From Thiohalomonas denitrificans (GTDB lineage Bacteria; Pseudomonadota; Gammaproteobacteria; Thiohalomonadales; Thiohalomonadaceae), in the NCBI RefSeq assembly GCF_016841685.1, contig NZ_JAENYR010000024.1, forward strand, positions 1-42,790: a stretch of 42,790 nt of DNA, given 5' to 3'. The position numbers were made by a program, and so were the translations under genes. Every line of letters starts with the position of its first letter. The stretch's first letter is position 1. The notes below the pieces were generated by a model. That model was given only the letters and a program-made list of their open reading frames with translations. It did not search any database and was not told the DNA's origin. Below, piece after piece: positions 39,870-41,465 of this stretch.

Positions 39870-39998
39870 AACCACGGGGGGCACAGGGTTCACGGGGGCA
39901 ACACCGCAAACCACAGAGAACACGGAGAAAATAATCTTCAAAAATGACTCTGTGCTCTCTGTGGTAAAAACCCCGTGCTCCCCGTATTCCCCGTGGTT
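39870..39998. repeat. Nested palindrome of 9-nt units between dapC and dapD
   Basis: The outer perfect arms are AACCACGGGG (39870-39879) and CCCCGTGGTT (39989-39998). The inner arms CCACAGAGAACACGGAG (39911-39927) and CTCTGTGCTCTCTGTGG (39948-39964) match at 15 of 17 positions. The arms are themselves runs of about 9-nt units of type CCCCGTGNN (outer) and CTCTGTGNN (inner). It ends 30 bp before the dapD ATG and leaves the dapD ribosome-binding site (GGAAGGA) intact. Confidence 0.85.
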
Positions 39999-40028
39999 AA
40001 GCCATTTGTCAATTTGGAAGGAAACAAG

Positions 40029-40853
40029 ATGGAAGACATCAAGAACGTTATCGAGGAAGCCTTCGAGCACCGCGCCAACATCACGCCGCGCAGTGCCGAG
40101 CCTCAAGTGAAAGAGGCCGTCGAAGAGGCCATCCGCCTGCTGGACAGTGGCGAACAGCGGGTTGCGGAACGCCGCGGCGTGGGCGACTGGCAGGTCAACG
40201 AGTGGTTGAAGAAGGCGGTCCTGCTCTCCTTCCGCATCGAGGACAACCGCTACATGAAGGGCGGCTTCACCAACTATTTCGACAAGGTGCCGTCCAAATA
40301 TGCCGACATGAACTCACGCGACTTCCGCGACTGCGGCGTACGCGTAGTCCCGCCTGCCTCGGCCCGACGCGGCTCCTATATCGCGCCCGGAGTGGTGCTG
40401 ATGCCCTCCTATACCAATATCGGCGCCTACGTGGACTCCGGCACCATGGTCGACACCTGGGCGACCGTCGGCTCCTGTGCGCAGATCGGCAAGAATGTCC
40501 ATCTCTCCGGCGGCGTCGGCATCGGAGGCGTTCTGGAGCCCCTGCAGGCGGCCCCGACCATCATCGAGGACAACTGCTTCATCGGCGCCCGCTCCGAGGT
40601 TGTCGAAGGGGTCATCGTCGAAGAGGGTGCGGTCATCTCCATGGGCGTCTACATCGGCCAGTCCACCCGCATCTACGACCGCGAAAAAGACGAAATCCTC
40701 TACGGCCGCATTCCCGCCGGTTCGGTGGTGGTCTCCGGAAACCTGCCGAGCAAGGATGGCAAGTACAGCCTGTACTGCGCGGTCATCGTCAAAAAAGTGG
40801 ACGAGAAGACCCGCTCCAAGGTCGGTATCAACGAGCTGCTGCGGGATATCTGA
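40029..40853 (+). CDS. dapD: Tetrahydrodipicolinate N-succinyltransferase (274 aa)
   Basis: Transfers succinyl from succinyl-CoA to tetrahydrodipicolinate. An N-terminal helical domain (residues 1-100, with [13 protein letters not shown] and [17 protein letters not shown]) precedes a hexapeptide left-handed beta-helix ([41 protein letters not shown] from about 118). [34 protein letters not shown] is near 160. 274 aa is exactly the usual length. The start at 40029 is supported by GGAAGGA 6 nt upstream; the upstream open extension to 39975 only translates the palindromic repeat. Confidence 0.97.
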
Positions 40854-40860
40854 GGGCTTT

Positions 40861-41017
40861 AACCACGGGGCGCACGGGGAACAAGGGGAACAAGGGGAAC
40901 ACGGCGAAACTGAAAGGTAACCACAGAGAAATTAAACGCACTTTTCAGTAGTTCTCTGTGGAGGCATCATGTTTTCCAAGGGTTGAAGTCCCCGTGCTCC
41001 CCGTGTCCCCCGTGGTT
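40861..41017. repeat. Nested palindrome of 9-nt units between dapD and the ArsC-like gene
   Basis: The outer arms AACCACGGGG (40861-40870) and CCCCGTGGTT (41008-41017) are perfect. The inner arms CCACAGAGAA (40921-40930) and TTCTCTGTGG (40952-40961) are perfect over 10 bp. The left arm includes a tandem of GGGGAACAA units with a 9-nt period; the right arm reads CCCCGTGCT-CCCCGTGTC-CCCCGTGG. It begins 7 bp after the dapD stop and ends 10 bp before the next ATG. Its last bases (GGTTGGA) are the only ribosome-binding-like sequence for that gene. Confidence 0.88.
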
Positions 41018-41027
41018 GGATCGAATC

Positions 41028-41372
41028 ATGAGCAAAATCTACGGCATCAAAACCTGCGATACGGTGCGCAAGGCACGCAAGTGGCTACGCGGACACGGTA
41101 TCGAGCATGACTTTCACGATTTCCGCGCCGACGGTCTGCCCGAAGAGCGATTGGCAATATGGGTTGGCGCTGTTGGCTGGGAGGCGCTGCTGAATCGGCG
41201 AGGTGTGGCCTGGCGCAAGCTGCCGGCCGAGAAGAGAGCCAATGTCGGTGAAGTGAAAGCACTGGAACTCATCCGCCAAGAGCCGACGCTGATAAAGCGC
41301 CCGGTGCTGGAGCACGAAGGAGGCGTGAAGGTAGGCTTCTCCGAAGACGACTACGCCGATCTCTTTCACTGA
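41028..41372 (+). CDS. ArsC/Spx-family reductase-like protein (YffB-like, 114 aa)
   Basis: Thioredoxin-fold protein of the ArsC/Spx superfamily. The active-site segment [16 protein letters not shown] places the single cysteine at C10, without a partner in CXXC. The rest follows Yff[31 protein letters not shown], and the conserved [22 protein letters not shown], which contains the cis-proline region. Proteins of this type often lie between dapD and dapE in gammaproteobacteria. They are sometimes called arsenate reductase, but glutathione-dependent thiol reduction is as likely and the substrate is unknown. The start at 41028 gives the usual N-terminus ([12 protein letters not shown]). Confidence 0.9.
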
Positions 41373-41377
41373 AGATT

Positions 41378-41465
41378 CACCGCAGAGACGCGGAGGAACG
41401 CAGAGAAAAGACTATGCAATTCTTCTTCTCTGTGCTCTCTGTGTCCTCTGTGTCCTCTGTGGCTA
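41378..41465. repeat. Palindrome of CTCTGTGNN nonamers before dapE
   Basis: The left arm starts with CACCGCAGAGACGCGGAGG (41378-41396). The right arm, 41425-41463, contains four consecutive 9-nt units of type CTCTGTGNN (CTCTGTGCT, CTCTGTGTC, CTCTGTGTC, CTCTGTGG). It is the third member of the family in successive junctions but uses only the CTCTGTG wording, with no outer CCCCGTG arms. It ends about 20 bp before the dapE ATG, and its right arm stays open in the dapE frame. Confidence 0.83.

Follow-up and report, generated by a model that had tools for sequence, protein, structure and literature searches.

Intergenic palindromes of a dap gene block as probable gene-less shells of GxxExxY nuclease elements

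Results

Palindromes between dap genes share units with arrays that enclose GxxExxY genes

Three successive gaps in the dap gene block of Thiohalomonas denitrificans each hold an inverted array of short repeats, within a stretch of 42,790 nucleotides that was analysed as a whole (the window; contig NZ_JAENYR010000024.1). These palindromes are probably non-autonomous shells of GxxExxY elements, small intragenomic selfish elements in which inverted arrays enclose a gene for a GxxExxY nuclease, and the shells would be mobilised by that nuclease. It is very likely that the shells belong to the GxxExxY element family; on the proposal that the nuclease is what moves them, we regard the case as about evenly balanced. 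The assignment of the dap palindromes to the family is based on their unit, their arrangement and the existence of gene-bearing relatives with the same unit variant (dialect), with weaker support from a motif at their ends.

The filled gaps lie between dapC and dapD (positions 39857-40028, gap 1), between dapD and an arsC-like gene (40854-41027, gap 2), and between the arsC-like gene and dapE (41373-41485, gap 3). Their arrays consist of 7-nucleotide (nt) units at a spacing of 8-10 nt, or a period of about 9 nt, and the 16 tandem occurrences of CYCYGYG or CRCRGRG units at exactly 9-nt spacing in the window all fall at 39873-41461. In gaps 1 and 2, CACGGGG/CCCCGTG units lie outside and CACAGAG/CTCTGTG units inside. 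Gap 3 contains one palindrome, whose left side is made of CGCAGAG and CGCGGAG units and whose right side is made of four CTCTGTG units. The initial annotation of this DNA had described a nested palindrome in every gap and units repeated in tandem within each arm. The nesting is present in gaps 1 and 2 (CCCCGTG outside CTCTGTG) and absent from gap 3, which has no CCCCGTG unit, and the units are generally in tandem except in the inner palindrome of gap 2, which has one unit per side.

In the draft genome that contains the window (G000; the sister genome is G001, and C- and L-numbers denote contigs and loci), we found four GxxExxY genes (TIGR04256; PF13366, PD-(D/E)XK nuclease), all four of which lie within inverted arrays. 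The unit differs from gene to gene, being CGCAGAG on C128, GCCAAGA on C72, CGCnAAGG on C62 and CACGGGG on C97; the C62 and C97 copies contain internal stops, and an intact copy with CACGGGG arrays is present on contig C4 of G001. CACGGGG, which forms the outer arrays of dap gaps 1 and 2, is the dialect of both the broken C97 copy and this intact copy, and the gap 3 unit, CGCAGAG, is the dialect of the gene-bearing C128 locus. The search gave no GxxExxY match on the window's contig, so the dap copies are shells and not full elements.

GxxExxY genes lie within inverted arrays in many phyla

Among GxxExxY loci from this genome, its relatives and the class, 42/54 had an arm score of at least 20, compared with 6/88 control windows. 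A second set, the named loci, comprised the best 80 of at least 578 loci from many phyla (Planctomycetes, Chloroflexi, Acidobacteria, Verrucomicrobia, Bacteroidetes, Proteobacteria and others), of which 77 were scored and three were dropped for short flanks. Scores of at least 16 were obtained at 60/77 and of at least 20 at 48/77 of these loci, compared with 3/98 control open reading frames (ORFs) at either threshold. Tandem units were present in at least one arm at 116/134 GxxExxY loci and in both arms at 88/134. When own arms were compared with those of other loci by permutation, 25/54 loci stood above the 99th percentile of other-locus pairs and the own partner was the best match in only 23/54, a null that is inflated because unrelated loci share dialects. 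At the level of whole genomes, a GxxExxY match was found in 11/15 array-rich genomes versus 8/80 others (95 genomes, Fisher P 9e-7), where array-rich means 20 or more matches of CYCYGYGnnCYCYGYG and no fewer than 3 times the control, a cut-off chosen after the counts were seen.

The dialect follows the nuclease tree. The protein tree included 108 of the 116 loci with units (eight with stops or shorter than 100 amino acids were dropped), and removal of nine rows with rare dialects left 99. On this tree the dialect changes 36 times, versus 58.3 ± 2.2 times after label shuffling (0/300 shuffles gave as few), and the corresponding values for the named loci alone are 25 and 34.6 ± 1.6.

GxxExxY elements also occur at identical junctions of conserved gene pairs across genera, with dialects that are partly different (L031/L071/L074/L075; L088/L089/L090/L093; L034/L076; L092/L094; L033/L080/L091). 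Read by eye and named from the protein starts, these junctions are presumably ribF|ileS, trpE|trpG, pth|ychF, glyQ|glyS and leuD|leuB.

The GxxExxY protein has a conserved, putatively catalytic core

In an alignment of 66 GxxExxY proteins, E27, Y30 and D67 do not vary, and conservation reaches at least 90% at E77 and K79; we take the arrangement of E77, K79 and D67 to be the D...ExK motif of the PD-(D/E)XK superfamily. The best solved fold match of a GxxExxY model (mean pLDDT 96.7) was SSO0001 (4ic1; Foldseek E 6e-4, VIA Z 9.5, root-mean-square deviation 3.4, 97 aligned), which is presumably a Cas4-like exonuclease; 4ic1 stands among many PD-(D/E)XK enzymes in the fold matches, and no function follows from it. 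By sequence, no solved homologue was found at E 0.01. The short descriptions of TIGR04256 in NCBIfam and of PF13366 in Pfam name only a protein or nuclease superfamily, with no mention of an element or repeat, and the open-access PMC full texts searched assign no function to GxxExxY. One GxxExxY protein was scanned against the PADLOC anti-phage models and against PHROGs and matched neither. Carriage by plasmids or phages was considered and rejected, as one GxxExxY protein matched 8 of 72,556 plasmids and 0 of 50,697 phage records; this scarcity would be expected for an element whose movement is intragenomic.

A full element begins with a loose end, TTMAC, and an array of 7-nt units (consensus CRCNRRG), in most cases two to four of them, with free spacers of 1-2 nt; one gene for a GxxExxY PD-(D/E)XK nuclease follows, and then the inverted array and the inverted end. 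Each lineage has its own unit dialect, which is common to both arms, and a shell consists of the arrays without the gene. The nuclease may bind the units, cut DNA and move shells in trans: it would recognise the array of its own units at each end of a full element or a shell, and cut at the array or at a hairpin or cruciform that the arms can form. Such cutting would set off the transfer of the element, or its copying, to a different intergenic gap. Insertion into gaps would be tolerated, existing palindromes would be reused as landing sites, and the content of gaps would turn over.

Units agree between arms and shell spacers do not

At the variable unit positions, the two arms agree at a level of 0.846 in G000, 0.868 in G001 and 0.897 at GxxExxY loci, compared with 0.528, 0.531 and 0.618 when partners are shuffled. 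Between the two arms of shells, agreement of the 2-nt spacers is 0.300 and 0.333 versus 0.321 and 0.354 for shuffled pairs, and neighbouring spacers within an arm agree at 0.281 and 0.231 versus 0.333 and 0.316; spacer lengths are mostly equal between arms. Because their units are alike and their spacer letters drift, the arms of shells are not simple copies of each other. The complementarity of left and right arms noted in the initial annotation is, over the whole family, a property of the 7-nt units and not of the 2-nt spacers. Constant units with drifting spacers are the pattern that would be expected of sites recognised by a protein. A loose end motif, TTMAC, tends to lie outside the last unit in shells and at GxxExxY loci, its last two letters being the clearest; three of the six outer dap ends are exact matches (TTAAC, TTAAC, TTCAC), two are one letter off (CTAAC, TTAGC) and one is two letters off (CCAAC).

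Agreement of spacers bears directly on the alternative that replication or repair in the host (through template switching, slippage or gene conversion between palindromes) spreads the arrays, with the GxxExxY genes as settled passengers. Template switching or slippage would copy spacers, and shell spacers match neither between arms nor between neighbours within an arm. Passengers would also need no dialect match with their arrays, yet dialect follows the protein tree. Of the 12 Y1_Tnp matches in G000, 10 were fetched, and no inverted array of 9-nt period was found within 600 nt of any of these, a lone tandem pair lying to one side of one gene. On the other hand, spread by the host would account for the lack of clear arms at 17/77 GxxExxY loci, for the tandem duplication of arms with their flanks in a leu-type cluster (below), for the presence of a second protein family in arrays of another period (see Discussion), and for some agreement between the spacers of the two arms at GxxExxY loci. 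We consider this explanation unlikely, though deserving of some weight.

Several observations weigh against the reading of the dap palindromes as shells mobilised by a GxxExxY nuclease. The tracking of the nuclease tree by dialect is equally expected from mere joint inheritance of array and gene. Spacers at GxxExxY loci agree between arms above the shuffled level (0.478 versus 0.355, 0/500), only half of the outer dap ends (3/6) have an exact TTMAC, and none of the four GxxExxY genes in draft G000 is a partner for the inner CACAGAG dialect. The broken C97 copy has an arm score of only 13, because its right array sits further away. Scores below 16 were obtained at 17/77 named loci, including the sole archaeal locus (L189), and four of the 15 array-rich genomes (G007, G019, G040 and G076) have no GxxExxY match. 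In comparisons of gaps between G000 and G001 (below), neither an insertion event, a clean empty site nor a target-site duplication was seen, both gaps being mostly filled, so that insertion itself is inferred. Finally, six of the 30 non-conserved comparisons score 0.40-0.55 and may be diverged copies.

Elements are dispersed over the genome and filled gaps cluster

In the 3.79-Mb draft genome, CTCTGTGnnCTCTGTG has 48 matches versus 0 in the control, and CYCYGTGnnCYCYGTG has 239 tandem matches versus 3. The palindrome family, which the initial annotation described at the dap block, is dispersed over the genome. A search for two-armed elements in 687 kb of G000 (an 18% sample that includes the window) found 41 elements versus 2 in reversed sequence, for a density of about 60 per Mb with about 8% of gaps filled. 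The commonest units in this sample are CGCAAAG, CACGGGG, CACAGAG, CGCAGAG and CGCCAAG, and all but CACAGAG have a matching or closely similar dialect at one of the four GxxExxY genes. The units were defined by regular expression after the data were seen, gene calls followed a greedy longest-ORF rule, and the dialect counts are of CRCNRR[GT] units only, so that dialects such as CAGGATT and AACAAGATG are left out of them. Nesting of one dialect within another was also found at C11:69041 and C24:56234.

The G000 sample contains 2 runs of at least three filled gaps versus 0.16 after permutation (15/2000 permutations reach 2), and the G001 sample contains 5 versus 0.24 (0/2000). These results uphold the earlier judgement that three independent insertions in adjacent gaps would be unlikely, and they possibly indicate a regional preference or short-range movement. 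Genome-wide counts of the units, which the initial annotation had set as its refuting check, give a divided answer: a clear bias to operon junctions is absent, and a bias to clusters is real. The two runs in G000 are the dap block and a cluster on C62 that contains a GxxExxY copy.

In the C62 cluster (18043-21107; L160, L161), which is a leu-type gene cluster, arrays occupy successive gaps and include the GxxExxY copy with internal stops; arms together with their flanks are tandemly duplicated, and differently so in G001.

Clustering is also what would follow if one palindrome had arrived in the dap block and then been duplicated into adjacent gaps, the local copying that the initial annotation had favoured as one of two possibilities. 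Gaps 1 and 2 both have the CCCCGTG outer unit, and 4/8 letters of their outer spacers are equal, slightly above the mean of 0.376 for three-unit arms of the same dialect. However, 47% of such same-dialect arm pairs agree at 0.5 or better, and this figure together with the family mean speaks neither for nor against copying between gaps 1 and 2. Further against local duplication, gaps 1 and 2 have unlike inner parts, gap 3 is built of other units, and G001 has CCCCGTG in gaps 1 and 3 but not in gap 2. Based on these comparisons, duplication within the block is quite improbable as the source of the three palindromes.

The content of gaps differs among relatives

For dapD, 23 of 30 fetched loci were examined, and dapC did not adjoin dapD in three of them. 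When read by eye, the dapC|dapD gap holds a 9-nt array in 8/20 of the cases with dapC found (G000 included) and none in 12/20. The dap-gap dialect of the relatives is CGCAAAG in G009 and G016 and CGCAGAG in G008, G011, G017 and G018, and a 7-nt CAAGTnn palindrome occupies the dapD|arsC gap of G009, G017 and G018. In G001, gap 1 has the nested palindrome in common with G000, and gaps 2 and 3 hold different arrays.

In 43 comparisons of G000 gaps with their G001 counterparts, 13 were conserved, 21 had a different 9-nt array and 9 lacked a 9-nt tandem; because pairs were run from either genome, some gaps enter the count twice, and the cut-off for a conserved pair was set by us. At C11:22113-22162, G000 has a 9-nt CTCTGTG palindrome and the counterpart gap of G001 has a 7-nt TAGCGAG palindrome, and thus two kinds of array use one gap.

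Tests of a role in RNA

A shared role in processing or stabilising the polycistronic RNA had been the other possibility raised in the initial annotation. Under this explanation the palindromes act as RNA, their folds in the dap transcript setting the processing or stability of its segments, and are kept by selection at operon junctions. The predicted RNA hairpins are strong, with z scores of -8.9, -5.7 and -7.0 for gaps 1, 2 and 3 against dinucleotide shuffles, none of which equals them, and 3/3 dap palindromes lie between co-directional genes. The sense strand of gap 3 pairs through G·U (z -7.0 versus -2.7 on the other strand), although this is one case only. At 37/68 named loci, the ORFs on both sides have the orientation of the GxxExxY gene, a count that has no null, and arm mismatches in G000 shells between co-directional genes comprise 31 G·U versus 22 A·C (P 0.27).

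If selection acted on an RNA hairpin, G·U should outnumber A·C among the arm mismatches of the transcribed strand. The G·U and A·C counts are 53 and 58 at GxxExxY loci (arms were of countable quality at 46/54 loci) and 32 and 36 in co-directional shells of G001, and the excess of G·U is non-significant. Nor are filled gaps significantly biased towards co-directional genes: 27/40 are co-directional in G000 compared with 60.4% of gaps (P 0.23), and 37/76 in G001 compared with 53.1% (P 0.81); a first census of G000 with other gene trimming had given 28/40 versus 57.7% (P 0.08). A conserved RNA function also fits poorly with the 12/20 dapC|dapD gaps that have no 9-nt array and with the different arrays in 2/3 dap gaps of G001. 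Rfam gave no match at the gathering score in window positions 38600-42790, and the same interval contains three intrinsic terminators (a short GC stem and a T run) versus 3.3 expected, none within the palindromes. The RNA role is not supported by the tests of G·U/A·C asymmetry and gap orientation, and we judge it improbable. Recognition as a DNA element fits better, because shell spacers are at chance, G·U and A·C mismatches are alike and filled gaps have no orientation bias.

Arrangement of the dap block in the window

All features of the block are on the forward strand. Gap 1 follows a dapC-like aminotransferase gene (38660-39856; Pfam Aminotran_1_2, E 3e-45), the name dapC being that of the initial annotation. 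Its outer left arm (39869-39897; TAAC followed by CACGGGG gg CACAGGG tt CACGGGG) forms a repeat pair, also found by the unit scan, with the outer right arm (39971-39999; CCCCGTG ct CCCCGTA tt CCCCGTG gtta), and a similar array is present in the same gap of G001. The inner left arm (39910-39927; CACAGAG, CACGGAG) is 89% complementary to the inner right arm (39948-39965; CTCTGTG ct CTCTGTG), which was likewise identified as a repeat pair and by the unit scan. Downstream is dapD, encoding tetrahydrodipicolinate N-succinyltransferase (40029-40853; Pfam THDPS_N_2, E 2e-26, with hexapeptide repeats).

In gap 2, the outer left arm (40861-40889; CACGGGG cg CACGGGG aa CAAGGGG ...) is 86% complementary to the outer right arm (40989-41017; CCCCGTG ct CCCCGTG tc CCCCGTG gtt), which is absent in G001, where a CACAGAG-type array is found. 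The inner halves are single units, AACCACAGAGAA on the left (40919-40930, from the repeat family and the fold) and TTCTCTGTGG on the right (40952-40961, from reading of the sequence and the fold). The arsC-like gene (41028-41372; Pfam ArsC, E 2.5e-21) separates this gap from gap 3, whose left arm (41376-41407; TTCAC followed by CGCAGAG a CGCGGAG gaa CGCAGAG) was recognised from the sequence and the RNA fold. The gap 3 right arm (41426-41462) has its four CTCTGTG units at 9-nt spacing, and gap 3 of G001 holds a different, CACGGGG-type array. The block ends with a dapE-like M20 peptidase gene (41486-42622; Pfam Peptidase_M20, E 9e-45). The 9-nt period had been said to keep a reading frame open through the palindromes, which applies to many frames and not to all; a coding role is unnecessary.

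Beyond dapE, at the contig end (42640-42790), lies a different repeat in two copies with ends like CCTCCTACCGGG and GGTAGGAGGCGC.

Discussion

A broader proposal extends these findings to bacteria at large. In this proposal, a phylum-spanning class of selfish elements would have ends made of inverted arrays of very short units, and every element would encode the small protein that reads its units, with repeats of about 9 nt read by GxxExxY nucleases and 7-nt repeats by S23 or four-helix-bundle proteins. Such elements would move themselves and large populations of gene-less shells between intergenic gaps, and the 23S rRNA intervening sequences would be a branch of the second kind. We advance it tentatively, as somewhat short of an even chance. 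The kind of element is widespread and apparently undescribed, in that no description of an array with a GxxExxY gene was found in open-access PMC full texts, subscription papers being outside the scope of the search.

The second kind is represented by TIGR02436, a four-helix-bundle family that we take to be of the S23 type. TIGR02436 loci in G000 and relatives (L169-L188) lie mostly between inverted 7-nt arrays, each locus having its own unit, and 11/20 have an arm score of at least 20. Counting arms with at least 14/18 matches, the period is 7 in 23/40 TIGR02436 arms examined, and among 108 GxxExxY arms it is 9 in 26, 8 in 13 and 10 in 5. Open-access PMC full texts gave no mention of TIGR02436.

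If the nuclease does move shells, this would be a second solution, with an unrelated enzyme, to the role that RAYTs are proposed to play for REPINs. The link to arrays gives GxxExxY genes a testable function and would explain the gap-filling repeat CTCTGTGnnCTCTGTG and its variants in many genomes, and the S23-type parallel would supply a setting for the 23S intervening sequences.

GxxExxY appears in PMC8934634 only as an annotation remark, and in a bacterial study a 16-letter array string is part of a polymerase chain reaction primer (PMC3090145). That primer, which contains CTCTGTGTTCTCTGTGGTG, lies near BF2782 of Bacteroides fragilis and serves an invertible promoter region, so that an array seems to adjoin a phase-variable promoter there.

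Known systems resemble these elements in part. RAYT (Y1_Tnp) was rejected as the resident gene of the 9-nt arrays, because 0/10 of the genes examined lie inside inverted arrays, although it might still act on them in trans. A REP string similar to the TAGGAGCGGC type flanks one Y1_Tnp gene (L349), and a TAGGAGCGGC-type REP-like palindrome lies inside the loop of a CACAGAG array at C24:50791-50929 (in L064). Miniature inverted-repeat elements (MITEs) are gene-less copies that share their ends with a gene-bearing element, as the shells do with GxxExxY elements. Unlike MITEs, the shells end in arrays of short units and not in a single terminal inverted repeat. No target-site duplication was seen in the sister-gap comparisons, which gave no clean filled/empty pair, sister gaps being mostly both filled.

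The REPIN/RAYT system (Bertels and Rainey 2011, PMC3116915; Di Nocera 2013, PMC3733652) is similar in its many small intergenic inverted elements per genome, its wide distribution and its rare gene-bearing relative proposed as the mobiliser. It differs in its enzyme, RAYT being a tyrosine transposase and the GxxExxY enzyme a PD-(D/E)XK protein, and in its ends: a REPIN is described there as one 20-40 bp palindrome with a GTAG or CGTC tag at one end (PMC3733652), whereas the ends described here consist of 7-nt units, separated by free spacers, in inverted arrays, and neither tag is present at the six outer dap ends. A parallel in layout to a gene within an array is the intervening sequence of Coxiella 23S rRNA, in which a small protein gene lies inside an inverted repeat and which has been termed selfish; S23 proteins are known from such 23S rRNA intervening sequences (PMC4990558). 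GxxExxY elements likewise place a small protein gene within an inverted repeat, but they use another protein family and a period of 8-9 nt instead of 7 nt, and the intervening sequences reside in rRNA and are excised by RNase III.

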